This document shows positions 20,690 to 42,299 of a stretch of DNA of 60,237 nucleotides, in pieces. The notes under the pieces were generated by a model. That model was not told where the DNA came from, did not search any database, and worked only from the letters and a program-made list of their open reading frames with translations. Both the position numbers and the translations under genes were made by a program. Origin of the DNA: Chromatiales bacterium (GTDB lineage Bacteria > Pseudomonadota > Gammaproteobacteria > Chromatiales > Chromatiaceae); assembly GCA_022360905.1 (NCBI GenBank), contig JAKSBX010000120.1:1-60237 (forward strand), in the 5' to 3' direction. The first letter of the stretch is position 1, and every line of letters begins with the position of its first letter.

Positions 20690-21634
20690 ATGAAAAAGAT
20701 CCTCGTACTTCAATATTCGCAAACCGGCCAGTTGTCCCGCATTGTCGAGTCGATCAGTGCGCCACTGCAGGCCTCAGCCGGGATTGAGCTGAAAACCGAA
20801 ACCCTTCGTCCGGTAACCCCCTATCCGTTTCCCTGGCCGTTTTTCAGGTTTTTGGATGTTTTTCCCGAATGCGTCTATCTGGATGCTCCTGAGTTGATGC
20901 CGCTGCAGATTGATGCGGATTACGATGCGGATCTGGTGATCCTTGCCTATCAGGTCTGGTTTCTGGCCCCGGCACTGCCGATAACCGGCTTTCTGCAGAG
21001 CGAGCAGGGTAAGCGGTTGCTGAACGGTAAACCGGTGATCACTGTGATCGGTTGCCGCAATATGTGGACCCGGGCGCAAGAGACCATGAAGACCATGCTG
21101 GATGACTGTGGCGCCCGTTTAATTGATAATGTGGTACTGACGGATCAGGGCTCCTTGCTGGCCTCCTTCATTACCACCCCAAGATGGCTGTGGACGGGTA
21201 AAAAGGAGCCCTTCTGGGGATTTCCGGCCGCCGGTGTATCCGATCGGGATATCGAGGCCTGCTGCCGCTTCGGTCAGGCGATTGAGCAGGGGCTTGGCGA
21301 GGACGCAGAGCAGCCATTGTTACAGGGTCTGCAGGCTGTGGAAGCGGATGTGAGTCAAATTCAATCAGAAAAAGTGGGTTATCGTAGTTTTCTGATTTGG
21401 GGTAAGTTGTTACGCAGGATCGGCAAACAGGGCGACTCCAAACGGACACCTGTGCTGGCGGTCTATGTGGTATTTCTGATTCTGATGATTGTCACCGTGG
21501 TGCCGCTGAGCATGGTTCTCAAGGCGCTGTTGGCACCGCTGATGAAGCAAAGACACCAACAGATTAAAACATATTTTGAGGCGCCTTCCGGATCGGGGAG
21601 TGAGCGCATGGAAGAATTCGGTTGCGGTAAATGA
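20690..21634 (+). CDS. darA: DarA-like flavodoxin-fold enzyme of dialkylresorcinol synthesis, membrane-anchored
   Basis: A 314-residue protein of the family annotated as dialkylresorcinol condensing enzyme. It opens with a flavodoxin-type strand and phosphate loop, KKILVLQYSQTGQLSRI, and contains the strand LVILAYQVWFLAPALPI expected of an FMN-binding flavodoxin-like fold. In Pseudomonas and Photorhabdus DarA aromatises the cyclohexanedione formed by DarB. A C-terminal hydrophobic stretch at about residues 248-275 suggests membrane attachment. Its stop overlaps the darB start by 4 bases (ATGA). First gene of a four-gene plus-strand operon. Confidence 0.78.
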   Translation: MKKILVLQYSQTGQLSRIVESISAPLQASAGIELKTETLRPVTPYPFPWPFFRFLDVFPECVYLDAPELMPLQIDADYDADLVILAYQVWFLAPALPITGFLQSEQGKRLLNGKPVITVIGCRNMWTRAQETMKTMLDDCGARLIDNVVLTDQGSLLASFITTPRWLWTGKKEPFWGFPAAGVSDRDIEACCRFGQAIEQGLGEDAEQPLLQGLQAVEADVSQIQSEKVGYRSFLIWGKLLRRIGKQGDSKRTPVLAVYVVFLILMIVTVVPLSMVLKALLAPLMKQRHQQIKTYFEAPSGSGSERMEEFGCGK

Positions 21635-22779
21635 GGGCATACATAACCAATACGTCGGCGTTCCTGCCGAACCAGCCTGTTGAGAATGAGCAGATCGAGG
21701 ATGTGCTGGGCATGGTGGGCGGTAAACCTTCCCGTGCCAAGCGTCTGGTTTTGCGCAGTAACGGCATCAAGCAGCGCTATTACGCGATCGACCCTGAGAG
21801 TGGCGAACTGAGCCACAGCAATGCAGAGATGACAGCGCTCTGCGTGCGGAAGCTGTTCGCCTCCGAGGCGGAACTCGATCAGATGCAGTGTCTGGTTTCA
21901 GGTACCTCCATTCCGGATCAGGTGATGCCAGGCCATGGGCTGATGGTGCATGGGGAACTGGGTAATCAGTGTTGCGAGGTCATCTCCACATCCGGGATCT
22001 GCCTGAGTGGTGCCGCAGCGCTGAAATATGCCTATCTGGCGGTAAAAAGCGGCGAGTTCAAACAAGCGGTCTCCACCGGCTCGGAGCTGGTTTCGCCGGT
22101 GTTGCGGGCCAGTCACTTCGAAGGGGAGTCGAAGTACAAAATCGAAAACCTGAAGAAAAATCCGGAGATCGCCTTCGAGAAGGATTTTCTGCGCTGGATG
22201 CTATCCGACGGCGCCGGCGCCTTTCGTGTCGAAAGCGAGCCCAACCAGCGGGCGGAACAACCGGTCGTGGAGATCGAATGGATTGAGATCTACTCCTATG
22301 CGAATGAGCTGGAGACCTGCATGTACTCAGGCGCGGAAAAGCTGGAGGACGGTGGCCTGGAGAGTTGGAAGCTCTACACTCAGCAGGGATTGATCGATCA
22401 CTCGGTGATGAGCATCAAGCAGGACGTCAAGCTGCTGAACGAGAACATCGTACCCATGGCGGTCAAGGAGACCCTCAAGCGGGTGATCGCCAAAACCGGT
22501 CTGCAGGCTGATCAGGTGGACTATTTTCTGCCCCACATCTCCTCCATGTATTTCGATGAGAAGGTCTATGAGGCGCTGGTGGAGCTCGATTTCGAGATTC
22601 CCCGTGAGCGCTGGTTCACCAATCTGACCACCCGGGGCAATACCGGCTCCGCCTCGATCTACATCATGCTGGATGAGCTGCTAAAATCCGGGCGCCTGAA
22701 AAGCGGTGAGCGGTTGCTCTGCTTTGTCCCGGAAAGTGGGCGCTTTTCCAGTTCATTCATGTTATTGAGCGTGGTATGA
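21631..22779 (+). CDS. darB: DarB-like beta-ketoacyl-ACP synthase III
   Basis: A 382-residue ketosynthase III homologue. DarB joins and cyclises two fatty-acid-derived chains into a dialkylcyclohexanedione, the precursor of dialkylresorcinols. The catalytic triad of the KAS III fold is visible: Cys124 in ISTSGICLSGAAAL, His302 in FLPHISSMY, and Asn337 in TRGNTGSASI. It is longer than FabH (about 317), with an insertion around residues 205-275 (including IYSYANELETCMYSGAEKL), as in the DarB subgroup. Translationally coupled to darA upstream and to the unknown gene downstream by ATGA overlaps. Confidence 0.82.
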   Translation: MRAYITNTSAFLPNQPVENEQIEDVLGMVGGKPSRAKRLVLRSNGIKQRYYAIDPESGELSHSNAEMTALCVRKLFASEAELDQMQCLVSGTSIPDQVMPGHGLMVHGELGNQCCEVISTSGICLSGAAALKYAYLAVKSGEFKQAVSTGSELVSPVLRASHFEGESKYKIENLKKNPEIAFEKDFLRWMLSDGAGAFRVESEPNQRAEQPVVEIEWIEIYSYANELETCMYSGAEKLEDGGLESWKLYTQQGLIDHSVMSIKQDVKLLNENIVPMAVKETLKRVIAKTGLQADQVDYFLPHISSMYFDEKVYEALVELDFEIPRERWFTNLTTRGNTGSASIYIMLDELLKSGRLKSGERLLCFVPESGRFSSSFMLLSVV

Positions 22780-23183
22780 AGATCAAAGACATTCCGCAGG
22801 ACAAAGCAGGATCGCTGGCTGGAGAGACCAAGGTGATCTATGCGGAATCGGACTCCGGCCGGATCGAGTCGTCCGAGACCAGTGGCTGGGAGGTTGAAGA
22901 GATTGTACTCGGCCAAGCGCTGGATGAGATCAAGCGCCTCACCGAGGACGCCTATCAGCGGGCCAAGCAGGGAAAGACCTCGGCTTTGGAATTTCATATG
23001 TATCATCAGCGCATGGACCTGCCGATGCTCGCCCAGGCGATGGGACGCTTTCAATGGATGGTGAAACGGGACTTTTCACCGCAACGCTTTGCCAAGCTCT
23101 CAGCCGAGAAGCTGGACGGTTATGCCGAAGTACTGGGTATCGATCGAGATAGATTAAAACAACTACCTGAAACGTATGAATAA
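22776..23183 (+). CDS. Unknown protein of the dialkylresorcinol-like operon
   Basis: A soluble 135-residue protein that I do not recognise. There is no signal peptide or membrane segment. The first 40 residues are polar and probably flexible; the rest is predicted helical, with EEIVLGQALDEIKRLTEDA and a conserved-looking FHMYHQRMDLPMLAQAMG segment followed by KRDFSPQRFAKLSAEKL. It overlaps darB by 4 bases and the next gene by 8, so it is embedded in a tightly coupled operon and probably acts in the same pathway. It could be an adaptor or chaperone for the acyltransferase downstream; that is a guess. Confidence 0.7.
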   Translation: MKIKDIPQDKAGSLAGETKVIYAESDSGRIESSETSGWEVEEIVLGQALDEIKRLTEDAYQRAKQGKTSALEFHMYHQRMDLPMLAQAMGRFQWMVKRDFSPQRFAKLSAEKLDGYAEVLGIDRDRLKQLPETYE

Positions 23184-24177
23184 ACCACTCGAGCACCGGC
23201 ATGCGGCGCATTGTGAGACAGGGGTCATGTCCGCCATGCTTCGCTATCATGGATTGGATGTGTCCGAACCGATGGCCTTCGGCCTGGCAAGCGGCCTGAC
23301 CTATGCCTATATCCCGATGGTGAAGATCAACGGTATGCCGCTGATTGCCTATCGAACCCCTCCTCGGATGATCATCCGTGCCCTCTCCCGGCGGATCGGT
23401 GGCCTGAAGATGGCATTTCAGAAATTTCGCAAACCGGCCCAGGGAGAGGCTGCGCTCGACCGGCTGTTGGATGATGGGCGGATTGTCGGGCTGCAGACCT
23501 CGGTCTTCTTTCTGCCCTATTTTCCCGAGGATATGCGTTTCCATTTCAATGCCCACAATCTGCTGGTCTACGGTCGCGAGGGTGAAGCCTTCCAGGTCAG
23601 TGATCCGGTGTTTTCCCATCTGGTGACGGTGGACCGGCCGAGTCTGAGCAAGGCGCGCTTTGCCAAAGGCGCTCTGGCCCCCAAAGGTCTACTCTACTAC
23701 CCGGCCGAGGTGCCGGCGGAAATCGATTTCAAAACTGTGCTGCCGAAGGCGATCCGTTTCACCGCCAAGATCAATGGCAACCGAAGTCCGGTGCCGATTG
23801 CCGGCTCGAAGGGTGTTCAGCGGGTGGCAAGAAATATCCGCAAACTGGTCGATGCCGAGGAGCGTTACGCCCATCTCTATCTCGGCCATATTGTGCGCAT
23901 GCAGGAAGAGATCGGTACCGGTGGTGGCGGTTTTCGCTTCATGTATGCGGCTTTCCTGCAGGAGGCGGCGGAGATTCTGGCCTCGGATCAGCTGGCTGAA
24001 GCCGCCGATGAGATGTCGTCGATCGGCGATGAGTGGCGTCTGTTTGCCCTGATGTGTGCGCGTAAGAGCAAAGCCCGCTATGACGACACCTTCGACTCAA
24101 TCGCCGACCAGCTGGATAAGATCGCCCAGCGTGAAGGGGCCCTTTTTACTCAACTCAGTGCTTTAGAATCAAAGTAA
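23176..24177 (+). CDS. BtrH N-terminal-domain protein (acyl-ACP transferase-like)
   Basis: A 333-residue protein related to BtrH, the butirosin enzyme that moves an acyl group from an acyl carrier protein to an amine. The N-terminal half has the BtrH pattern: HRHAAHCETGVMSAMLRYHG with Cys13 as likely nucleophile, then EPMAFGLASGLTYAYIP, and a histidine in FHFNAHNLLVYG. The C-terminal part (about 215-330) is helical and matches the DUF4872-like extension. Similar genes occur in flexirubin-type clusters. Its last 23 bases overlap the end of the convergent ketosynthase-like gene. Confidence 0.8.
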   Translation: MNKPLEHRHAAHCETGVMSAMLRYHGLDVSEPMAFGLASGLTYAYIPMVKINGMPLIAYRTPPRMIIRALSRRIGGLKMAFQKFRKPAQGEAALDRLLDDGRIVGLQTSVFFLPYFPEDMRFHFNAHNLLVYGREGEAFQVSDPVFSHLVTVDRPSLSKARFAKGALAPKGLLYYPAEVPAEIDFKTVLPKAIRFTAKINGNRSPVPIAGSKGVQRVARNIRKLVDAEERYAHLYLGHIVRMQEEIGTGGGGFRFMYAAFLQEAAEILASDQLAEAADEMSSIGDEWRLFALMCARKSKARYDDTFDSIADQLDKIAQREGALFTQLSALESK

Positions 24178-25024
24178 CGGTCAATCGGTCACTGCCGGCA
24201 GTACCGTTCAACATCCCCAGGCGCTCGCCAGGTTGAGCGCCATCGAGCCAGCGTTGCAGGTAGTCTGCATTTTGTGTCAGGTAGTGCCCCCGGCTTCGAG
24301 TGACGAGCCTCTCTCCTGGTAGTTGAAAGTCGCCTACTGCAGAATCCTGGAAGAAATCCCCGAGCAGGTGGTGGCTGATCTGACGCTCATGGAAAAAATC
24401 CGCGACTCGACGGCTATCCCGTATCGGTCCGCAGTATTCGATTGTGGCAAGCGCGGATTCCTGCTGCTGAGGGTGGCCGCAATGGAACCAGAAACTGCCT
24501 TCAGCCAGCGGGGTTGCCGGAGACATACTCAAGCGCTGCCGGTGCTGATCCGGATTGTTGGGAACCTCATCCACGGTGCCAAGCAGGATCGGCGATGGAT
24601 CGCTGTGTTGTAAACTGCCGGCAACCTGGATCCCTGCCTCAAGCGAGCAGTGGTCCCTGGATACGCTGATCGCCTGCCCATGGATACCCAGGGTGACACA
24701 GATATGGTAGGCGGTCGAGTTGTTGACGGTATTGATGAAACCGATCGGGTTGGGCAGGGTACCGCTGGCAAAGATCTGCTCACTATTGAGGATGGTACTG
24801 TTGAGGTTGGCATCGCCGCTGGCCAATACCAGATGTGTCCCAGGGTGGAGCTCGTGACTGGCGGGTATATGGGAGAAACCCAGCAGACTGAGCTGGGTGA
24901 GCCGGTCTGAACGGCGCGGCAGCTTGTAGGGTAGCGCCTTGAGCCGATCATTCAGCTTGGGCAGCTGTTGTTCAACAGTATGGCGAAAGCCGCCATAGGC
25001 AAATAGGGGCAGGTTCAAATCCAT
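24155..25024 (-). CDS. Half-length ketosynthase-like protein (chain-length-factor type)
   Basis: A 289-residue protein resembling only the N-terminal half of a beta-ketoacyl synthase. The segment NPIGFINTVNNSTAYHICVT corresponds to the conserved region before the active site. Where the catalytic cysteine normally sits, the sequence reads ISVSRDHCSLEAG; the best alignment puts Arg at the nucleophile position and a Cys three residues later. The second half with the two catalytic histidines is missing. This suggests a structural or chain-length partner of the intact ketosynthase upstream, as in aryl-polyene and type II polyketide pairs. Starts in the TAATG overlap with that gene; its 3' end overlaps the BtrH-like gene. 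Confidence 0.72.
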   Translation of the reverse strand: MDLNLPLFAYGGFRHTVEQQLPKLNDRLKALPYKLPRRSDRLTQLSLLGFSHIPASHELHPGTHLVLASGDANLNSTILNSEQIFASGTLPNPIGFINTVNNSTAYHICVTLGIHGQAISVSRDHCSLEAGIQVAGSLQHSDPSPILLGTVDEVPNNPDQHRQRLSMSPATPLAEGSFWFHCGHPQQQESALATIEYCGPIRDSRRVADFFHERQISHHLLGDFFQDSAVGDFQLPGERLVTRSRGHYLTQNADYLQRWLDGAQPGERLGMLNGTAGSDRLTVTLILKH

Positions 25025-26172
25025 TAGACCTTTTCCACAATGAGTACGGTATTGCTACCGCCAAATCCAAAATAGTTGAGTAGATAGACACCATCCCTGG
25101 CGTCAAGATCCTCATTCAATGGGGTTAGAGGCAGTTCCGGGTCGGGGGTTTCAAAATTGGGCGTTTTGGGCACATACCCCTGTTCAAGCGCCTCGGCAAA
25201 CAGAATCAGTTCCAGCGTACCGCAAGCCCCAAGGGTATGGCCGACATAGGGCTTGATGGCGGTGATCGGTGGTATTTCGTCTGGAAACGCGGCGACAATC
25301 CCCTTCGATTCCGAGATATCGTTCATATAGGTCGCGGTGCCATGGGTTTTGATCGCCAGTACCTCGGATTTGCCGATACCGGTATCGCGCAGTGCATTCT
25401 CCAGCGTCTGGGCGATGGTCGAACCATCCGGATTCGAGGTGGTGATACTGTATGGGTCAAAACAGCTGCCACCACCGCAGAGCATTAGAGAAGTTGTCGA
25501 TTTCTTAGCGTTGCTGATGACCACCGCGGAACAGGACTCGCCGAGGATGATGCCATCACGGTTTTTATCGAAGGGTGCAATACGTTGTTCGGCGATCAGC
25601 TGCAGGCCGGCGAATCCGTTGATGGTGGTCTCATTGTAGAGTTCGATACCCACCACCAACGCATGTTCATAGTGACCCTGTTGCAACATGTTATGGGCCA
25701 GCAGCATGGCATTGGCGCTGGAGGTGCAGGCCGAGTTGATGTTGAAAGGTTCGCTATCGATACCAAACCGCCGGCAGATCGATTCGCCAAGCCGGTTGTA
25801 GCCGGTAAAAGGCATCGGCACTGCCGATGGATCCCCGGCCACAAGTTTCTGGTTGTAGTCGATTTCACTATCGCGCAGGTCGTAGGAGGATGAGCCGATG
25901 AACAGCCCGGTCTGTCTGATCTCGGCCGGGCTCAGCTGACTTCTCTGCAAAGCCCTTTCGATGACCTCAAACAGAATCCGCTCGGTTCGATCCAGTTCGT
26001 CAAACCGGTTATCGATCGAATAGTAGGGGAGCTGCAGTGCGGTGGAATCGAGTTGCAGTGTGGGCGGTCCAAATTGCCCTGCTGCGCCTCCATCGCCCGA
26101 CGAATTGCTCAGTGATTCGCCGAGGTGGGATGCGCAGGCATATCCTATGATGGGAAGCTTAGCTGACTCCAT
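25024..26172 (-). CDS. Beta-ketoacyl-ACP synthase (FabF/FabB-like)
   Basis: A 382-residue condensing enzyme with a complete catalytic triad: Cys149 in NINSACTSSANAML, His277 in IKTHGTATYMND and His312 in IKPYVGHTLGACGT. It decarboxylates malonyl-ACP and elongates an acyl chain. The region between has the usual MNRDGIILGES-like stretch (FDKNRDGIILGESC). I chose the ATG at 26172, 5 bases after the acyl carrier protein stop; a start at 26244 would lie inside that gene. It is the obvious partner of the half ketosynthase downstream. Confidence 0.88.
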   Translation of the reverse strand: MESAKLPIIGYACASHLGESLSNSSGDGGAAGQFGPPTLQLDSTALQLPYYSIDNRFDELDRTERILFEVIERALQRSQLSPAEIRQTGLFIGSSSYDLRDSEIDYNQKLVAGDPSAVPMPFTGYNRLGESICRRFGIDSEPFNINSACTSSANAMLLAHNMLQQGHYEHALVVGIELYNETTINGFAGLQLIAEQRIAPFDKNRDGIILGESCSAVVISNAKKSTTSLMLCGGGSCFDPYSITTSNPDGSTIAQTLENALRDTGIGKSEVLAIKTHGTATYMNDISESKGIVAAFPDEIPPITAIKPYVGHTLGACGTLELILFAEALEQGYVPKTPNFETPDPELPLTPLNEDLDARDGVYLLNYFGFGGSNTVLIVEKV

Positions 26173-26176
26173 GTCC

Positions 26177-26446
26177 TTACTCTGGGCGTAAATGGTCCGC
26201 CAGGTTGTTGATGGTGGCAAGAATCTCTCTTGATTCGGCGTCATTCTGGATGTGTACGCCGTAACGGTTTTTGATGGTGACTATGACTTGAAGCATATCG
26301 ATGGAATCGAGTCCAAAGCGGGCCTCCGGCCCGGCCAGATATTCGTCATCCTCGATATCCTGAGGATCGAAATCATCCAACCGGCATTCATCAACGATCA
26401 TCTGTTTGAGTTCCTGTTTGAACTGTGTATCCGTTGAACCTTTCAT
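26177..26446 (-). CDS. Acyl carrier protein
   Basis: An 89-residue acyl carrier protein with the phosphopantetheine attachment site at Ser48 in FGLDSIDMLQ. This is a specialised ACP: it is unlike the housekeeping AcpP in having an extended, acidic N-terminus and a RFGLDSID motif like those of aryl-polyene and flexirubin clusters. It starts in a TAATG overlap with the ABC permease and is followed within 4 bases by the ketosynthase, so it is the likely carrier for the chain made and released in this locus. Confidence 0.88.
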   Translation of the reverse strand: MKGSTDTQFKQELKQMIVDECRLDDFDPQDIEDDEYLAGPEARFGLDSIDMLQVIVTIKNRYGVHIQNDAESREILATINNLADHLRPE

Positions 26447-27636
26447 TATTTGATTTCCGTCAGGCCTTTATATGAATGGAGTGAAAGTAAAAACAAACAG
26501 CCGGAGAATGCCAACAACTTGAGGATCTCGGGCCCGGCCATGGCCCATCCGCCCTCTCTCAAAAGGATGGAGAAGAAGCCTTCCAACGCCCAGTTCATGG
26601 GTGACAGGGCGGCGATCTGTTGCATCAGTTCAGGCATTACAAAAGTCGGTACCATGATACCACCAATGGCGGCCAGAATAAGGTTACTGATTCCGCCAAG
26701 CGTGGTCGCCTGCTCGGTGGTCTTGGCCTGGGTGGCGATCAGCAAGGCGAAACTGATTGCCGACAGGCTGGTGGCGATGATTAACGGCAGCAGCAACCAG
26801 CTCTGCCCGGTGAGTTGCAGTCCCTCACCGGTCAGTAGTGGTACCAGGTGGATACCGACCAGTAGCATCAGCAGCGCCTGAATCAGATTGATTCCCAGGT
26901 AGGGAATCAGCTTGCCGATCAGCAGGTAGCTGCGGGGTACCGGCAGGGTCTGTAGGCGATGCAGTGTGCCTTGCTGTCTTTCTGTCAATAGGGTTGTCGA
27001 AATCGGCAGTACCACAAAAAACATCGCAAAGATCAGCCAGGCGGGAACGCTCTGCTGAACTGAATTGGGCTGGGACTTCGTTTCGGTGCCGTGGGTCTCT
27101 GTGACTACCAGGGATCTGCCCAGCAGGTGGTCGACCCGTTGCTGGCGTTCTGTATCGCTGAGATCGTCATGTTTGAACAACTGATTGACCTGATAGGCCC
27201 CGAGGGCCTGTCGCACGGCACCCAGGATCGAACGGCGCATTGAGCTGGGGAGGGTGGCGGCATAGAGGATCCGCAGCTTTTCGCTGCGCTCGGTCACTGG
27301 CGCTTGGATGATCTTGGCGAACCGGGCGGGTAGCATGACGCCAGCGATGATCTCTCCCTGTTGCAGGGCGCGGCTCAATTGTGCGGCGCTTTCGAAGTGC
27401 TCAACCCGGGTCCCTTCAAGTTGTTGGAAGTGTTGGCTCAACTCCCCGTCGTTGTAGTTGTCGGCGGCCATCCAAAGACCCACTTTAGGGCGGTCCTTGG
27501 ACTCGCCGCTCATCCGGTCTTGCAGCGCCAGTGACATGATCAGAATGAACACAATCGGTAGCAGGAACAGCACCAGCAGGGCATGAATATCCCGGGAGAC
27601 CAGTAAAAGCTCTTTTTTAATCACCGCATACAACAT
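26446..27636 (-). CDS. ABC-2 type transporter permease
   Basis: A 396-residue permease of the ABC-2 (YhhJ/NatB-like) type. One membrane segment lies near the N-terminus (ALLVLFLLPIVFILIMSLAL), a large periplasmic domain (about 45-195) follows, and five segments fill the C-terminal half. This layout is common in exporters of lipids, polyketides and antibiotics. The ATG lies 4 bases after the ATPase stop and its own stop overlaps the acyl carrier protein start, tying the exporter to the lipid pathway. Confidence 0.88.
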   Translation of the reverse strand: MLYAVIKKELLLVSRDIHALLVLFLLPIVFILIMSLALQDRMSGESKDRPKVGLWMAADNYNDGELSQHFQQLEGTRVEHFESAAQLSRALQQGEIIAGVMLPARFAKIIQAPVTERSEKLRILYAATLPSSMRRSILGAVRQALGAYQVNQLFKHDDLSDTERQQRVDHLLGRSLVVTETHGTETKSQPNSVQQSVPAWLIFAMFFVVLPISTTLLTERQQGTLHRLQTLPVPRSYLLIGKLIPYLGINLIQALLMLLVGIHLVPLLTGEGLQLTGQSWLLLPLIIATSLSAISFALLIATQAKTTEQATTLGGISNLILAAIGGIMVPTFVMPELMQQIAALSPMNWALEGFFSILLREGGWAMAGPEILKLLAFSGCLFLLSLHSYKGLTEIK

Positions 27637-27640
27637 GGAT

Positions 27641-28564
27641 TCAATCTCTCAAGTGGGTATGGGTCAGCTCGAAAAACAGCTTTTCCAGGGTATGTTTACC
27701 GTAGGAGAGGTTGACCACAGACAGGTTGAGTGAAGCCAGGGTTTGCAGCAGTTCGCCAATCTCTGCCTGATCTTTGGGGTATCCGCTGATCGTCTGCTCG
27801 GAGAGGCTGAAGCCCTTTGTCTGCAGTGATTTACTCAGTTGTGCGTATTGGTTTTTATCGGTTACGGGTGCCAGCTCAATGGTCAGTTGAGGATCCCGCT
27901 TGAGGATCTGGCGCAGCGGACCCTGCTCCAGGATCTTGCCGTGATCCATAATCGCCACTTGGTCACAGAGTTGCTCGATCTCTTCCATGTAGTGGCTGGT
28001 GTAGACGATGGTGCTGCCTGCCCTGTTCAGTTCCCGGATCGATTGCAGGATGAAATGGCGGGACTGGGGATCTATGCCCACTGTAGGCTCGTCAAGGAAG
28101 ATAAGCTGCGGTTCGTTGAGCAGGCCGATGGCCAGGTTGAGACGCCGTTTCAAACCACCGGAGAAGTGTTTCGCCAATTTTCCGCGCTGTTCTGTCAGTC
28201 CGGTCAATACTAGTGCCTGCTCGATCAGCTGGGCTCGGTTGCTGGCCGGTTGGGGATAGAGGCTGGCAAAGAACTGCAGATTCTCCAGCACGCTCAACTG
28301 GGGGTAGAAGGCATATTCCTGAGGAATGTGGGCCAGCTTTTGCAGGATCGATGTTCGCTGCGCCGGGTAGCTTTCTCCATCGATCTCGATCTCGCCAGCG
28401 ACGGGTTGCAGTTGTCCGGTCATCAATGAGATCAAGGTGGTTTTACCCGCTCCGTTGGGACCCAGCAAGCCAAATAGAGAACCCTTGGCAATCGCCAGGC
28501 TTACACCCTCGAAAAGCGGGGGGTGATCCGGGTAGTGATAGTCTATTTGTTGCAGCTCGATCAT
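27641..28564 (-). CDS. ABC transporter ATP-binding protein
   Basis: A 307-residue ATPase of the DrrA/CcmA type. Walker A GPNGAGKTTL, a Q-loop at IPQEYAFYP, the signature FSGGLKRRLNLAIGL and Walker B LIFLDEPTVGID are complete, followed by the H-loop TSHYMEEIEQL. The C-terminal 80 residues form an extra domain usual in drug and lipid exporters. First gene of the minus-strand operon ATPase-permease-ACP-ketosynthase-half ketosynthase; its promoter should lie in the 221-base divergent gap toward glnE. Confidence 0.92.
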   Translation of the reverse strand: MIELQQIDYHYPDHPPLFEGVSLAIAKGSLFGLLGPNGAGKTTLISLMTGQLQPVAGEIEIDGESYPAQRTSILQKLAHIPQEYAFYPQLSVLENLQFFASLYPQPASNRAQLIEQALVLTGLTEQRGKLAKHFSGGLKRRLNLAIGLLNEPQLIFLDEPTVGIDPQSRHFILQSIRELNRAGSTIVYTSHYMEEIEQLCDQVAIMDHGKILEQGPLRQILKRDPQLTIELAPVTDKNQYAQLSKSLQTKGFSLSEQTISGYPKDQAEIGELLQTLASLNLSVVNLSYGKHTLEKLFFELTHTHLRD

Positions 28565-35295: not shown

Positions 35296-37500
35296 TCAAT
35301 CGTAGTTGATTTCGAGTGCCAGCCAATAGGCTCTGCTATCCATCGGGTACTCATTGATGATGGTCGAGCTGGCGGGTTCACTTATCTCATCGTCCAACAA
35401 ATTTCGGATGCCGAATGCCAAATCCAGATGCTCGAACAGTTGATTCTTACGTAGAGTCAGATTGAGCAGATGGTATGCGTCGATATCCGCTCGATCGTCC
35501 CCTTCAGCCCTTTTCTGTGCGCCGATCCAGAACCACTGGCCGTCGAGTGACCAGTTCGGCAGAAAGCGCCAATTGGCCCGGGCGTAGTATTGGAAGCCAT
35601 GGGAGTTGGCCAGATGCTTACCGCTGTTGCTGTCTTCACTGTGCTGCCAGGCGCCATTGCTCTGCACTCTGAGTTGTTGGTTCACCTGCCAGTCGATCTC
35701 GAATTCAACCCCATGTCCCCGCTGATCCCTGGCGTTCTGATTGGTGTTGCTGGCACCGCCTGCATCGGGTACCGCCTCGATCAGATCCTCTATCTCATAA
35801 ACAAATAGGTTGCTGGCCATCCTCAGGTCTGGCGTAGGGCGCCAGTCGATGGCAAACTCCAGGGTGTCGATGGTTTCCGCTTCCAACTCGCTATTGCCCA
35901 GTTGAACCGGGTTGTTCTGTGCATAGAGTTCTGAGAATGAGGGGGGGCGGAACGCCCGGCCGTAGAGCAGCTTGGTGGTCAGGTCGTAGCGGCTCTGCCA
36001 CACCAGCGCCAGTCTGGGATTGAAAGTGTCGCCGAAGTCTGAGTAGCGGTCATAGCGAGCGCCGAGGGTGAGATCCCAATCCTTCGCCAGAGCCCATTCG
36101 TCCTGTAGCGAGATGAACCAGAGATCCCGTTTCTTGTCCGGGCTGTAGTTATAGGGGGTACCGGTGACGTTGGTCAGGGTGCCGTCCACCTCCTGCGGAC
36201 TTCCATCGAGTACTCCGGGGCCGAAGTTCTGTCTCGCTCCGGCTTTGTACTCCATACTGTCGTAGCCTGCAGAGAGTCGAATCAGATGGTGCGCCAGACC
36301 ATCATAGACACCAATGATACTGTTACGGTAGATGCGGTTGGTCGCTGCCGGGTGACCAATGTAGCCGTCGCTGAAATGGGTGACGCCTACCGGGTTGATG
36401 AAGTCCAGGTTGCCGTCAGCGCCGATGGGTAGGGTGGCACCTGGCGGGAAGAGATTGAACTTGCTGACATAATCAGAGTAGTTGTAGTTAAAGCGAAGCT
36501 GCAGATGCCAGTCCGGATGAAGTTCCTGGTTCTGGTAGAGGAGATCGAGGCTGTAGAGGTCCTTGTCGTGTGAACCTTCGGTATCCAGCACCGGAGCGGC
36601 TCCCACGCCGACGCCGGCATCCCGTTGTCTTATTCCCCAAAAGCGGGCGGTCCACTCATCCTTGCGCAGGCCGAGGTGAAAATTGAGCAGACGCTGATCC
36701 AGATTCATGGCGCCAGGGGCCTGGGAGGCCTGGGTGCCGAAACTCTCATCCAGGGTGGTTTGCAGATCCTGTTGAATAATCCGCTGATCATCGGTCCCCT
36801 GTTTCAATGCCTCGATGCTGGCAACCAGATCCCAACCCTGATGATTACCGCCATACTGAAGCCAGCCATTGCTGGTATCGAATGACCCTTGGCGGTAGCC
36901 GGCCCGGGCGCCACCGATCTCCTGGCCATCCTTGGTGACGATATTGATCGTGCCGGCAAAGGCATCGGCGCCATGGATCGCCGAACCTGGCCCCCTGACG
37001 ACCTCGATCCTGGAGATCATCTCCACCGGCATCTCAAAGCGGTGGCCGAGATTGCCGTTCCACAGATCCTTGATCGGTGCGCCGTTGATCAATACCAGCA
37101 CTTGCGGGTTAAGGGCGGTCGTGATGCCGCGAATGTTGATGTTGGTTATCAGCGGGCCGAAGTTGCTTGAAGGGGTGACATGGAGTCCGGGTACGGTTTC
37201 CAATACTTCATACAGGGTTCTGGCCCCCAGCTCCCGGATCTCCTGCTTGCTGATCACACTCGTTACCGATGGTGCAAGAAACACCGGTTTGGCGCTGCCG
37301 GTGGCCGATACCAGCTCGGCATCGGTCCGGTAGTAGTCCTCTTCACCCGGTCCGCTGAACAGACTTTCAGCCTCACTCATCTGCTGATCGGTGATCACTG
37401 GAGAGTTGGCGATGGCGGAAACAGGAAACAGCAGCGGGAAGATGCAGATGAAGGGTAGCCTTTTCCATCGGTGGGTTAACGGCGTATGGGAATAGATCAT
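35296..37500 (-). CDS. TonB-dependent outer-membrane receptor (paralogue 1)
   Basis: A 734-residue receptor: signal peptide (about 1-31), an N-terminal extension ending in GEEDYYRTDAELVSATGS, a plug domain (about 55-180, including TLYEVLETVPGLHV and the RIEVVRGPGSAIHGADAFAG motif) and a 22-strand barrel ending in a C-terminal aromatic/charged strand (LALEINYD). The substrate cannot be told from sequence. It follows its paralogue with an ATGA overlap and is clearly a tandem duplicate, with long stretches such as TRYDLTTKLLYGRAFR-like segments shared. Confidence 0.9.
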   Translation of the reverse strand: MIYSHTPLTHRWKRLPFICIFPLLFPVSAIANSPVITDQQMSEAESLFSGPGEEDYYRTDAELVSATGSAKPVFLAPSVTSVISKQEIRELGARTLYEVLETVPGLHVTPSSNFGPLITNINIRGITTALNPQVLVLINGAPIKDLWNGNLGHRFEMPVEMISRIEVVRGPGSAIHGADAFAGTINIVTKDGQEIGGARAGYRQGSFDTSNGWLQYGGNHQGWDLVASIEALKQGTDDQRIIQQDLQTTLDESFGTQASQAPGAMNLDQRLLNFHLGLRKDEWTARFWGIRQRDAGVGVGAAPVLDTEGSHDKDLYSLDLLYQNQELHPDWHLQLRFNYNYSDYVSKFNLFPPGATLPIGADGNLDFINPVGVTHFSDGYIGHPAATNRIYRNSIIGVYDGLAHHLIRLSAGYDSMEYKAGARQNFGPGVLDGSPQEVDGTLTNVTGTPYNYSPDKKRDLWFISLQDEWALAKDWDLTLGARYDRYSDFGDTFNPRLALVWQSRYDLTTKLLYGRAFRPPSFSELYAQNNPVQLGNSELEAETIDTLEFAIDWRPTPDLRMASNLFVYEIEDLIEAVPDAGGASNTNQNARDQRGHGVEFEIDWQVNQQLRVQSNGAWQHSEDSNSGKHLANSHGFQYYARANWRFLPNWSLDGQWFWIGAQKRAEGDDRADIDAYHLLNLTLRKNQLFEHLDLAFGIRNLLDDEISEPASSTIINEYPMDSRAYWLALEINYD

Positions 37501-39674
37501 AGGTTAATCTGCAGTTCTGCCCAGATCTCGCGTCCTTTCATCGGGTAGTCATTCGGGATTACTGAGGTGCTGGGTTCCCGCACATCCTCATCGAACAGGT
37601 TACGCACCGCCAGGGCTAGGTCCAGGTGTTCGAACAGGGCTTGCCGGCGCAGTGTCAGATTGGTGATTCTGTAGTCGTCAACCGCTTTACGGGTGTCGCC
37701 ACTGGCCCGTTCCCGCTGGCCGACCCAGAGCCATTGGGCATTGACCGACCAGTCCGGCAGAAATTGCCAATCACCAGCCAGGTAGGCCTGCAGGCCGGGG
37801 GCATTCGGTACCGGGTCGCCACTTTCTTTGTCTTCAGAGTTCTGCCAGGCCATATTCGAACTCAGCTGCAGGCTGTCGGTAACCTGCCAGTCACCTTCAA
37901 GCTCAAATCCATGGCCTTTCTGATCCCTGGCATTTTGCGATGTTGTCGTGGCCTCGCCTTCATCCGGCAGAAACTCGATCAGACCGTCGATTGTATAGGC
38001 AAAGAGATTGGCGGCCAGCCGCAGATCAGCCGTTGGTCGGTAGTCAAAAACCAGCTCCAAGGTATCCAGAATGGCCGGGTCCAGGTCCAGATTGCCCAGG
38101 CCGATGGGGTTGTTCTGCGCATGCATATTGGTAAAGCTGGGTGCCCGGAATGCGCGTCCATAGAGCAGTTTGGTGGTCAGGTCATAGCGGGTCTGCCAGA
38201 CTAAGGCGGCGCGTGGATTGAAAGTGCCACCAAAATCCGAATAGTGGTCGTAGCGGGCTCCCAGGGTCAGCTCCCAGCCTTTGCTGAAGTTCCATTCATC
38301 CTGTGCGGATAGATACCAGAGACGGCGATCCACATCGGGCATGAAGATTCTCGGATCACCGGTGAGATCAGTCAACGTACCATCGACAACAGTCTGTGTG
38401 CCATCCAGTACGCCAGGTCCCCAATTCTGATAGGCCTTGTAGGCGGTTTCCGTATACTGATAGCCAATCGAAAAGCGCATTTGATGCTGCGCGATGCCGT
38501 CATACAGTGCAACACTCTCAGCACCATATTGGTTTTGAGTACGGATCGGAAAGCCGATGTAACCGTCAGTGAATAGCGTAAGTCCGGCTGGATTCGTAAA
38601 GCTCAAGTTCCCATCGCTGCCGATTGGCAGCAGAGCACCAGGGGGGAAGAGCTGTAGATTGGTTATTGCCTTCAGGTAGAGATAGCTGAGGTTCAGATCG
38701 AAATGCCAGTTATCGAGCCACTGGTCGTTGTTGTATGTCACGCTTCCCAGTAAGGCATCACTTTCCAGGTGGTTCCCATCTGCCATGGCGTTGGCCAGTC
38801 CGGCCCTGGTGCCGCCGTCATTTTCCCTCCAGCCCCAGAGAAAGATCTGCCAGTTTTCCTTGTTGAATCCGAAATAGGCATTGAGCGTGTCCTGTTGAGT
38901 ATCCATGGCGCGGGGAGCCAGTGAAGCAGAAGTGTCGAAACTCTCGTCCAACAGGGTTTGAAAATCCCGCTCAATGACCCGGCCATCGTCACCATCAGAT
39001 TTCATCATATCCAGCGTCATCGCGATGTCCCAGCCCTGATATTGGCCACCAGTCAATACCCAGGCATCTTTGCGCGAAAAGGAGCCGCCTCGGTATCCTC
39101 CCTGTGTTCCGGCAATCTCCTGACCATCTTTGGTGATCACATTGATGGTACCAGCGAATGCATCAGCGCCGTGTACTGCAGAACCGGGCCCCCGTATTAC
39201 CTCAACCCTTGAGATCATGCTGACAGGCAATTGAAACTGACTGGGTCGCCCGCCCTGGTGCAGATCCTGTACCGGCTTGCCGTTGATCAAAAGTAAAACA
39301 TGGGGGTTGGCATTGGCATGGATGCCGCGAATCGACCACTGGGTCTGATAGTTGGGTGAGGGTGACATGTAGACATGCAGACCGGGTACGGTTTCCAGGA
39401 CCTCGTCCAGGGTAGTGGCGCCCATCGCCTTGATCTCTTCTTTGGTAATAACGCTGGCGACCGATGGCGCCAGGAATACCGGTTTGGCACTACCGGTAGC
39501 ACTCACCAGAACAGCATCGGTCCGATAGTAGTCCTCTTCAACCGGTCCACTGAACAGACGTTCCGCCTCTTCCATCTGTTGATTGGTGATGAGTGGGGTT
39601 TCATTTGCCTGGGCAGCAAACTGGCTGCTCAACAAGATGATCGGTATGAGGCGCTTGCAGGGAGTGCGTGGCAT
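37497..39674 (-). CDS. TonB-dependent outer-membrane receptor (paralogue 2)
   Basis: A 725-residue receptor closely related to its downstream neighbour; the two share DYYRTDA, LVSATGSAKPVFLAPSV, VIRGPGSAVHGADAFAGTIN-type plug motifs and a near-identical barrel segment around LTTKLLYGRAFR. I chose the ATG at 39674, which gives a standard signal peptide MPRTPCKRLIPIILLSSQFA; an in-frame start at 39821 would place 49 odd residues before it. The N-terminal region after the signal peptide contains the conserved LFSGPVEEDYYRTD. Divergent from the histidine kinase. Confidence 0.9.
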   Translation of the reverse strand: MPRTPCKRLIPIILLSSQFAAQANETPLITNQQMEEAERLFSGPVEEDYYRTDAVLVSATGSAKPVFLAPSVASVITKEEIKAMGATTLDEVLETVPGLHVYMSPSPNYQTQWSIRGIHANANPHVLLLINGKPVQDLHQGGRPSQFQLPVSMISRVEVIRGPGSAVHGADAFAGTINVITKDGQEIAGTQGGYRGGSFSRKDAWVLTGGQYQGWDIAMTLDMMKSDGDDGRVIERDFQTLLDESFDTSASLAPRAMDTQQDTLNAYFGFNKENWQIFLWGWRENDGGTRAGLANAMADGNHLESDALLGSVTYNNDQWLDNWHFDLNLSYLYLKAITNLQLFPPGALLPIGSDGNLSFTNPAGLTLFTDGYIGFPIRTQNQYGAESVALYDGIAQHQMRFSIGYQYTETAYKAYQNWGPGVLDGTQTVVDGTLTDLTGDPRIFMPDVDRRLWYLSAQDEWNFSKGWELTLGARYDHYSDFGGTFNPRAALVWQTRYDLTTKLLYGRAFRAPSFTNMHAQNNPIGLGNLDLDPAILDTLELVFDYRPTADLRLAANLFAYTIDGLIEFLPDEGEATTTSQNARDQKGHGFELEGDWQVTDSLQLSSNMAWQNSEDKESGDPVPNAPGLQAYLAGDWQFLPDWSVNAQWLWVGQRERASGDTRKAVDDYRITNLTLRRQALFEHLDLALAVRNLFDEDVREPSTSVIPNDYPMKGREIWAELQINL

Positions 39675-39786
39675 ATTGACTAGCTGCTTGTTCGTATCAT
39701 TGCTGTACTGTTTTTTACCCTCATAAAGGGGTAGCGACCGGGGATCGATATCCAGTACTAAATTATTCATGAAAGTTGTAAACCTA

Positions 39787-39794
39787 GGGGGGGG
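39787..39794. repeat. Homopolymer of eight G (C on the minus strand) in the receptor leader
   Basis: Eight consecutive G residues between the receptor and kinase genes. On the minus strand the C8 tract lies inside the 17-base gap between a TTGATT (39809-39804) and a weak TAGGTT (39786-39781), so slippage could change promoter spacing. The -10 is poor, so this is only a candidate for phase variation. Confidence 0.35.
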
Positions 39795-39865
39795 ATTGAG
39801 AAAAATCAAGAGAAAACGCATTCTTAGCTGACATGACGCAAGGTGCTATCTAAACTTGTGCCTCT

Positions 39866-41470
39866 ATGGGACTTAAAAGTATTCGATATCCTGCCGGCAA
39901 ACTGCCTTCGATCCGGGTCTATCTGGTGTCGATGAATCTCGCATTGCTGCTGCTTTTTATGGCGATCAGCCTATTGTTCTGGCAACAGATCAGCAATTTC
40001 TACCAGAGTGAACAGGCGGAGGATATCGTCTCGATACATAATGCCATGCAGGCCCGCAGTGCCTCACTGGTCCGCAGTATGGCCCTCAGCGCCAACCAGG
40101 CAATCACCGGATACGATTTCAGTTTTCTGATTAACCTGATGAAGCAGGTTACTGATGGGGATCGGGATATTCAGTACTGTACGGTACTTAGCAATCTGGG
40201 GCAGGTGGTTGCACACAATCAGGTCGATCAGGTCGGGCGTCTACCGGACAACCCGATCGATAAGCAGGCACTCGCCTTGCTGGACGATGAGTTCATTGAT
40301 GATCAGGTCAGTGATTTTTCGATTCAGTTCATTGACACTCTTGGCACCCTAGAGACTCAGAATCAGATGATGCAGGTTGTCACGCCGGTATTCAACGGTC
40401 AGGAATTGTGGGGCATATTGTATTGCGGTATCTCACTGGCCGGTGTGCAGGCGAGCATCATCGAGCGAACGGCCGAGTGGCATGAGGAGATAAACCGTAT
40501 CTGGTTCTTTTATATCAGTGTGGCGGCGGTATTTATTCTGTTTGGGTTTATGATTTCACTGTTCGTCACACAGCGTCTGCTGAGGGCCGTTGACCAGCTC
40601 GATGCGGGTGTTAAGGAGGTCTCTGCTGGGGATCTCAACTACCGCCTGAGCATGCAAGGATTGATGTGCGCAGAGTTCGGGACCTTTGCAACCTCGTTCA
40701 ACCGTATGGCCAGCAATCTGGAAAATTCACATCGGGCGCTGGATGGTTACAATCGCTTACTGGAGTACAAGGTTGAGGAAAGAACCGTCGAGCTGGCCCG
40801 TAGCAATAAAGAGCTTGAGGCGTTTAATTACTCGGTGTCCCACGATCTGCGCGCGCCATTACGCAGTATTGAAGGGTTCAGTCAAGTGCTCTCAGAGGAG
40901 TACCATGATCGCCTCGATGAGACCGGCCTCGATTACCTGCGTCGGGTCAGAGCCGCGGCATCCCGCATGGGGGTGTTGATTGACGATATGCTGAGACTCT
41001 CAAGGCTCGGTCGACAGGAGATGCAGGTCAGTACGGTTGATTTGAGCGAATTGGCTAACAATACCCTCAGTAAGTTGGCCGAGAATGAACCTGACCGCCA
41101 GGTGAGCTTCCAGGTCGCGCCGGATCTGATGGTCCAGGGTGACCGTCAGTTGCTGGGTATCGCCCTGGATAACCTGATTGGCAATGCCTGGAAGTACACC
41201 AGTCGTCGCGAAAAAGCTGAAATTGTATTCGGCAAAGCTGTAAAGGAGGGCAAATCCTGTTACTTTGTACAGGATAATGGGGCCGGATTCGATATGCGCT
41301 ATGCCGATAAACTGTTTGGTGCCTTTCAGCGCTTGCACAAAAGCAGTGATTTTGAAGGGACCGGCATCGGTCTGGCGACTGTGGCCAGAATCATTCATCG
41401 ACATGGTGGATCCGTGTGGGCGGAATCCGAGGTGGATGCCGGTGCAACCTTTTATTTCCAACTGCCTTAG
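39866..41470 (+). CDS. Transmembrane sensor histidine kinase
   Basis: A 534-residue kinase. First membrane segment at about 19-40, a periplasmic sensor domain of about 170 residues resembling a Cache-type fold, second segment at about 213-235, HAMP at about 236-290, a coiled segment, HisKA with the phosphoacceptor His326 in NYSVSHDLRAPLRSIEGF, and an HATPase domain with NLIGNAWKYT, DNGAGFD and GTGIGLATVARIIHRHGG. The NYSVSHDLRAPL type of HisKA is that of phytochrome-like kinases that use Rcp regulators. No receiver domain is attached and no regulator is adjacent; the nearest is at 33143. Divergent from the receptors. Confidence 0.9.
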   Translation: MGLKSIRYPAGKLPSIRVYLVSMNLALLLLFMAISLLFWQQISNFYQSEQAEDIVSIHNAMQARSASLVRSMALSANQAITGYDFSFLINLMKQVTDGDRDIQYCTVLSNLGQVVAHNQVDQVGRLPDNPIDKQALALLDDEFIDDQVSDFSIQFIDTLGTLETQNQMMQVVTPVFNGQELWGILYCGISLAGVQASIIERTAEWHEEINRIWFFYISVAAVFILFGFMISLFVTQRLLRAVDQLDAGVKEVSAGDLNYRLSMQGLMCAEFGTFATSFNRMASNLENSHRALDGYNRLLEYKVEERTVELARSNKELEAFNYSVSHDLRAPLRSIEGFSQVLSEEYHDRLDETGLDYLRRVRAAASRMGVLIDDMLRLSRLGRQEMQVSTVDLSELANNTLSKLAENEPDRQVSFQVAPDLMVQGDRQLLGIALDNLIGNAWKYTSRREKAEIVFGKAVKEGKSCYFVQDNGAGFDMRYADKLFGAFQRLHKSSDFEGTGIGLATVARIIHRHGGSVWAESEVDAGATFYFQLP

Positions 41471-41501
41471 GGTTAGTTACAGCTCCCAGGGAGCAGATTG
41501 A

Positions 41502-42299
41502 TTGCATAACCTGAAACGATTAAACCTGGGCTGTTGGCTGTTATGGCTAAGCCTGCTGATCGTCCCTGGTCATGTTGCCGGGGATGATGGGTTGCGTTTC
41601 TACTACTTCAATCCCGACTCGCCACAAAACAATCTTGGTCGACTTAAGAGTGACATGGAGTCGTTGCTGGATGGTTTCGATATGACCATCGAGTTCCAAC
41701 CATTTGCCCATTTGACCGATTTCGATGCCCGGGTGCGGAGTGATCGACCGGCATTCGTGTTTGCCCCTCACTGGTATCTGAAGCGCAATGCGGACGAGAT
41801 TCGCTTTACTCCCCTTTTGCAGTCTGTACGCCAGCAACAAAACAGTTATCGCAAATTGTTGGTCGCCAGGCTTGGTGAAGATGACGACATCAACAGGCCC
41901 GAACGTCTGACCCTGGCCATGACCAGTCTTGGTCCGGGTTCAAAGCTGTTGTTGGCAAGTATGCTGAACCCCGAGAACTTTGTGGCACTCGACAAGCTGA
42001 GTATCGTTGAAGTGCCTAAAGATGCCGATGCGATCTTTGCCGCGGCATTGGGACAGGTTGATGTGGCCCTGGTGTCTCAGGCCAATATGAAGCTGTTCCG
42101 CAAAATTAATCCCAGATTGATCGATTCCCTAAAAGTCATCAGTGAATCGACACCGATTGATATGCCTGTATTGGGTTACATCGATGGCGTTGTGACGGAG
42201 GAACAAGCGGCTGCACTAAAACAATTCATGATTTCCTCTCAAACCAGCTCTGTCATGCGAACACTTCAGATTGAAGGGTGGAGCAGCCATGAAAGATAG
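41502..42299 (+). CDS. Periplasmic PhnD-like binding protein
   Basis: A 265-residue protein with a signal peptide ending near AGDD (residue about 28) and a PhnD-type phosphate/phosphonate-binding fold: FYYFNPDSPQNNLGRLKSDM, RPAFVFAPHWYLKR, and AALGQVDVALVSQAN, in which the last motif corresponds to the DVG-type ligand loop. The start codon is a TTG at 41502, preceded by AGGGAG; no in-frame ATG gives a signal peptide. No permease or ATPase accompanies it, so a ligand-sensing accessory to the upstream kinase is more likely than uptake. Overlaps the next gene by 11 bases. Confidence 0.72.
   Translation: MHNLKRLNLGCWLLWLSLLIVPGHVAGDDGLRFYYFNPDSPQNNLGRLKSDMESLLDGFDMTIEFQPFAHLTDFDARVRSDRPAFVFAPHWYLKRNADEIRFTPLLQSVRQQQNSYRKLLVARLGEDDDINRPERLTLAMTSLGPGSKLLLASMLNPENFVALDKLSIVEVPKDADAIFAAALGQVDVALVSQANMKLFRKINPRLIDSLKVISESTPIDMPVLGYIDGVVTEEQAAALKQFMISSQTSSVMRTLQIEGWSSHER

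Follow-up and report, generated by a model that had tools for sequence, protein, structure and literature searches.

Nine genes on contig JAKSBX010000120.1 of the Chromatiales bacterium assembly GCA_022360905.1 very probably constitute the dialkylresorcinol (DAR) module of a polyene-DAR membrane pigment of the arcuflavin/flexirubin type in a Candidatus Thiodiazotropha-like bacterium. The gene set itself is already known, and the locus represents the DAR half of a described two-part yellow pigment class. The stretch analysed (the window; 60,237 nucleotides) is the whole of this contig, C76 in our numbering, which belongs to a 4.59 Mb genome in 288 contigs with a completeness of 93%; genomes, contigs and loci are referred to below by handles beginning with G, C and L, respectively. 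A polyene operon is found on two further contigs of the same genome, and DarE, the putative joining enzyme of the module, co-occurs with polyene genes throughout the genomes searched.

The nine-gene locus and its protein families

The locus comprises nine intact open reading frames (ORFs) at positions 20690-28564, with darA, darB, darD and darE on the plus strand (20690-24177) and darK, darJ, darC, darI and darF on the minus strand (24155-28564). The two facing operons read from the sequence in the original prediction are thus present, with every ORF intact. Most adjacent ORFs overlap, darI and darF are separated by a gap of 4 bases, and the true start of darJ probably lies inside its ORF, since this overlaps darC by 68 bases. 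Promoter and terminator scans of the locus gave counts close to those of shuffled sequences (4 vs 5.0 and 9 vs 8.0, respectively).

The translated products were compared with Pfam and NCBIfam hidden Markov models, with a floor of E<=0.001 for statements that no model was matched. Residue conservation was determined in alignments built with score floors and including the window sequence, with 77 rows for DarA, 81 for DarB, 73 for DarD, 70 for DarE, 48 for DarK, 54 each for DarJ and DarC, 57 for DarI and 60 for DarF. DarB belongs to the StlD/DarB family (NF005293; Bitscore: 597; cut-off: 450) and matches the StlD structure 5gk0 in the PDB (e-value: 2.4e-138), while C124, H302 and N337 are kept in 81/81 aligned sequences. 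It falls below the narrower DarB model NF053539 (Bitscore: 520; cut-off: 550), a cut-off reached by none of the eight DarB homologues among the relatives' genomes, its own included. DarA matched no Pfam or NCBIfam model at this floor, and the same holds for NCBIfam and the compared Photorhabdus DarA. Its identity to the DarB-adjacent homologues is 48-52% (304-313 aligned residues) in 7/7 loci compared, Photorhabdus among them, and it weakly matches the PDB entry 2mwm, a 'putative trp repressor binding protein' (e-value: 0.013) which we take to have a flavodoxin fold. The name DAR-aromatase is that of Table 1 in PMC3949708. The expected placement within its family stands for DarB; DarA has close homologues but matches no model.

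DarD, the unknown gene of the original prediction, matches the DarG family dialkylresorcinol biosynthesis protein model (NF053536; Bitscore: 154; cut-off: 70), and DarE that of the BtrH-related acyltransferase DarH (DarH_acyl; NF053550; Bitscore: 463; cut-off: 300) as well as PF14399 and PF16169. These NCBIfam DarG and DarH models match the genes at the positions of DarD and DarE in the naming of PMC3949708. Cys13, His127 and Asp143 of DarE are invariant in 70/70 aligned sequences, and no relative was found in the PDB at E<=1. DarJ exceeds the cut-offs of PF00109/PF02801, with C173 and H336 kept in 54/54 sequences and H301 in only 41/54, and the acyl carrier protein (ACP) DarC exceeds that of PF00550 (Bitscore: 24.1; cut-off: 20.8), with its Ser48 kept in 54/54. 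The ABC-2 permease and ABC ATPase, encoded by darI and darF, are likewise above their Pfam cut-offs. The DarB-like and BtrH-like proteins, ketosynthase (KS), ACP and ABC pair proposed earlier are thus confirmed by their family models.

For DarK, neither Pfam nor NCBIfam gave a match at E<=0.001, PF13723 remaining below threshold (e-value: 0.02). A profile of a 26-row DarK alignment, window included, matches polyene chain-length factors (CLFs) with an hhalign probability of 78% (e-value: 1.9e-5; 77 columns), and at E<=0.1 four of the 26 homologues match PF00109 and three match PF13723. There is moderate support for DarK being CLF-like and related to the polyene CLFs; this assignment was preferred to an unrelated protein on the basis of the profile match and the PF13723 trace.

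Table 1. Genes of the dialkylresorcinol locus in the window
Gene	Position	Strand	Predicted product and features
darA	20690..21634	+	DAR aromatase, flavodoxin-like, 314 aa
darB	21631..22779	+	StlD/DarB-type ketosynthase/cyclase; C124-H302-N337
darD	22776..23183	+	Small conserved DAR protein; NCBIfam 'DarG family'
darE	23176..24177	+	BtrH_N + DUF4872 acyltransferase (NCBIfam DarH_acyl); putative Cys13-His127-Asp143
darK	24155..25024	-	Half ketosynthase, chain-length-factor-like
darJ	25024..26244	-	Ketosynthase; C173, H301, H336
darC	26177..26446	-	Acyl carrier protein; attachment Ser48
darI	26446..27636	-	ABC-2 permease; PF12698 7.5e-40
darF	27641..28564	-	ABC ATPase; PF00005 1.8e-30

The polyene operon and the distribution of the module

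Polyene genes are carried by two short contigs of the host genome. C241 (4281 bp) encodes a cut glycosyltransferase, a ketoreductase (KR), an ORF of the size of a dehydratase, a CLF, a KS and the end of an AMP-ligase, while C207 (5421 bp) encodes a cut acyltransferase, a LolA-like ORF (a weak match to NF053544; Bitscore: 34; cut-off: 125), an MMPL exporter sharing 94% identity with its counterpart in the relative G002, a membrane protein and the larger part of the AMP-ligase. The two contigs have an exact 141-base end in common and map side by side, in colinear order, on the G002 cluster, in which Pfam models identify GT2, KR, CLF (PF13723), KS, AMP-binding, MMPL and lipid-A-type acyltransferase proteins. 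An ACP is encoded at the start of the G002 operon, an end not seen in the host, and the host dehydratase was called from its size, its position and sub-threshold PF22817 matches in two relatives. Together, C207 and C241 supply the KS, CLF, KR, putative dehydratase, AMP-ligase and exporter by which a type II polyene operon in the same genome is recognized. The KR and other polyene genes whose absence had appeared odd in the original prediction are therefore present in the genome, and the notion of a self-contained pathway is not borne out. A complete aryl-polyene cluster elsewhere in the genome, named beforehand as evidence that would count against that notion, was very nearly found: the operon is there, but both of its outer ends are cut by contig edges. 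A tryptophan-halogenase-like FAD protein is encoded near the polyene operon of G002 (L119:6467-7702), and a similar one inside a Paraglaciecola polyene cluster (L031:16867-18138).

Genome contigs were furthermore scanned for DarB with a three-sequence DarB alignment as query, and all locus counts refer to the best 80 of at least 546 relatives (at least 596 stretches). Profile matches were obtained for DarA in 78 of these loci, DarD in 72, DarE in 70, DarJ in 61, DarF in 60, DarC in 59, DarI in 57 and DarK in 50. The nine-gene set that the original prediction had proposed to look for in other genomes is complete in 41 of the 53 loci of at least 19 kb. The exact facing layout of the window (ABDE/KJCIF) occurs in 24 loci, 18 of them from Pseudomonas, including L080 of Pseudomonas sp. 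8O. Seventeen loci have the order ABDEFICJK on one strand, four are arranged FICJK-ABDE, two are divergent and 33 are of other or partial layout, the last including loci truncated at contig ends and others with all nine genes reordered (e.g. L068).

Synteny of the module is retained in four of the relatives' genomes (G002, G008, G016 and G017). It is retained in G009 as well, where contig ends truncate A and F; G044 shows A, B, D, E, K, J and C before its contig runs out, and in G011 the genes are distributed over two contigs. This cross-species synteny excludes chance or misassembly. On its two sides the locus has groEL/MCP/CZB and glnE in G002, G008 and G016, and also in G011, where the region spans two contigs; G017 has groEL and part of glnE nearby, with no MCP/CZB match. 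A second ACP-like ORF, with 31% identity to DarC, is located on the opposite strand upstream of darA in G044 (L015:1435-1659). Elsewhere in the window, at 35296-42299, two adjacent TonB-dependent receptor genes on the minus strand are accompanied by a plus-strand histidine kinase and a phosphonate-type periplasmic binding protein.

The closest named match among the 80 loci is that of Candidatus Thiodiazotropha sp. 'RUGA' (DarB identity: 98%), the one locus from this genus, to which the host probably belongs. Members of Candidatus Thiodiazotropha are endosymbionts of lucinid clams (PMC13137333).

DarE exceeds its cut-off in 8/93 genomes, the host included, namely 7/22 of the genus and G044 of another genus of the family, with a weak match alone in G070. 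These are the same eight genomes in which DarB exceeds 500 bits, and all of them are among the 20/93 with a polyene CLF, an overlap with a hypergeometric probability of 1.2e-6 (0.0019 for the 7/22 within the genus) that ignores relatedness. A KS search of 23 genomes with the PRK09116 model, which gave no match above its cut-off, located a further KS locus beyond the FabF-like KS and DarJ in each of the eight DAR-positive genomes, and likewise in G005, G007, G013 and G018. In other taxa, PF13723 was searched for in 48 genomes, drawn from 50 of the 80 DarB loci (49 of the 53 of at least 19 kb, without L080, L081, L091 and L093, together with L038), of which L071 and L087 of Photorhabdus lie outside this search. 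It was found above cut-off in 47/48, relatedness again being ignored, the sole genome without it being that of Photorhabdus tasmaniensis. DarK is unlikely to be the source of this signal, as the best PF13723 e-value among the 26 DarK rows is 0.0011. DarE is encoded at the locus in 42/48 genomes and elsewhere in the genome in G137, and is absent from the genomes G093, G095, G102, G121 and G122; all of the DarE-positive genomes (43/43) have PF13723 above cut-off. DarE is thus accompanied by polyene genes in all genomes searched, and polyene genes do not imply DarE. A distant DarB-like protein is encoded within a 635-amino-acid open frame in G076 (C1:1474726-1475823; Bitscore to NF053539: 255), in which neither DarE nor a CLF was matched.

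Proposed pathway and competing explanations

Ring formation by DarB and aromatization by DarA are known chemical steps, and as such DarB would condense two fatty-acid-type intermediates into a ring which DarA would aromatize to a resorcinol. DarC and the KS/CLF-like pair DarJ/DarK may supply a tailored acyl-ACP. BtrH family proteins catalyze acyl-ACP-dependent transfer and, taken with the invariant Cys-His-Asp of DarE, this points to DarE as a cysteine acyltransferase, which would transfer the ACP-bound polyene to a phenolic hydroxyl group of the DAR and so form the ester. The polyene itself would be built on an ACP by the operon of C207 and C241, and DarF/DarI, along with the MMPL and LolA-like proteins of that operon, may carry the pigment to the outer membrane. 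Its starter is probably 4-hydroxybenzoate produced by UbiC, a protein encoded in 8/8 genomes. The aryl polyenes of Escherichia coli are predicted to begin from the same compound (PMC8253772), and DAR production by darA/darB has been demonstrated in relatives (PMC3992019).

Several observations weigh against the assignment to a polyene-DAR pigment. Regarding the starter, ammonia lyase (PF00221) was found in 0/15 genomes, with controls positive in 5/14, and XanB2-type chorismatase (PF21168) in 0/15, host included, in a search whose control was silent. The dehydratase and the membrane protein of the G002 polyene operon have no Pfam match, and PF22817 is above cut-off in 0/23 genomes, the two sub-threshold matches (G005, G009) directly adjoining the CLF. 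Ten of the 47 PF13723 matches are weak (59-99 bits), and 4/5 DarB-positive genomes without DarE possess PF13723, so that polyene and DAR genes can coexist without it. Three loci, L057, L083 and L099 (Colwellia, Alteromonadaceae and a Psychrobiaceae bin), contain ABDE with no C, I or K match nearby, so that the module's second half may be dispensable or unlinked. Furthermore, a ligase-like protein, FlxW, has been suggested for the joining step in flexirubin (PMC3992019).

A KS, an ACP, a transferase and an exporter are all encoded within the DAR locus itself, which is located on a different contig from the polyene operon, as would be expected of a free-standing DAR-lipid pathway. In such a pathway, the resorcinol would receive an ordinary fatty acid from DarE, the ABC pair would export the product and the polyene operon would make an unrelated compound. 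G005, G007, G013 and G018, which have a polyene CLF but neither DarE nor a DarB above 500 bits, also fit this explanation. Azoarcus, however, makes a single polyene-DAR pigment, even though its two polyene loci are unlinked to each other and, by locus number, apart from dar (PMC3949708). The earlier proposal of a DAR pathway with a dedicated ACP, KS pair, BtrH-type transferase and ABC pair is supported, but its free-standing version loses ground with the discovery of a polyene operon in the host genome, and none of the DarE-positive genomes searched for both lacks a polyene CLF (8/8 relatives and 43/43 named genomes carry one); we consider it unlikely. Free DARs serve as signals or antifungals in Photorhabdus and Pseudomonas chlororaphis, and DarA and DarB share 48% and 55% identity with their Photorhabdus homologues, but that the host makes such compounds, with the extra genes as mere accessories, is very improbable, since the Photorhabdus genome G121 lacks DarE and PF13723 and its locus D, E, F, I, J and K, all of which the window contains.

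The polyene-DAR reading places a two-part pigment system in probable clam symbionts, and no paper in the library searched pairs Thiodiazotropha with polyenes or resorcinols, while the part of its secondary-metabolite literature that was covered showed no resorcinol, pigment or polyketide. We tentatively raise the possibility, short of an expectation, that some sulfur-oxidising lucinid-clam symbionts make a polyene-DAR ester primed with UbiC-derived 4-hydroxybenzoate, a variant of arcuflavin without tyrosine ammonia lyase or XanB2, in which DarE joins the halves and the pigment shields symbiont or host membranes from oxidants. The strict link between DarE and polyene genes, along with its invariant Cys-His-Asp, makes it a candidate for ester formation that can be put to the test.

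Comparison with known systems

Free-DAR darAB loci, whose products include isopropylstilbene in Photorhabdus and 2-hexyl-5-propylresorcinol (HPR) in Pseudomonas chlororaphis, encode DarA and DarB homologous to those of the window. No D, E, F, I, J or K was seen in three Photorhabdus loci, whereas the window has all of these genes, setting it apart from a free-DAR locus. The flexirubin clusters of Chitinophaga and Flavobacterium combine darA/darB with a polyene cluster (ketosynthases, reductases, dehydratases, a LolA-like protein and an exporter), as in the host (PMC3992019). Flexirubin, however, starts from tyrosine via the ammonia lyase that was not found in the 15 genomes, so that the host departs from flexirubin in this respect. 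In the hybrid aryl polyene-DAR clusters of marine Pseudomonadaceae (PMC10165715), represented by L080, the facing layout is exactly that of the window, while the polyene cluster is connected to the DAR cluster, as opposed to their location on different contigs in the host.

The Azoarcus sp. BH72 pigment arcuflavin has been characterized and assigned by mass spectrometry as a polyene-DAR ester, and Table 1 of the same source gives azo0283-0293 as darK, darJ (KS), darC (ACP), darI (ABC permease), darH (PilT), darG (PHD), darF (ABC ATPase), darE (BtrH-like), darD, darB and darA (PMC3949708). The PHD/PilT pair between its ABC genes is not found in the window, and the order fits the one-strand ABDEFICJK layout (strands are absent from Table 1), in contrast to the facing one. 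BH72 furthermore has a XanB2-type chorismatase, whereas the host has UbiC and no PF21168 match in the search with the silent control. In both organisms, the polyene loci are located elsewhere in the same genome. DarA and DarB and the accessory D, E, F, I, C, J and K of the arcuflavin type are all found in the window by gene kind. The suggestion of a possibly undescribed gene set in the original prediction thus gives way, given the 24 facing loci and the BH72 dar cluster, which contains the same nine kinds of gene as the window, compared by gene kind and not by sequence alignment (PMC3949708).

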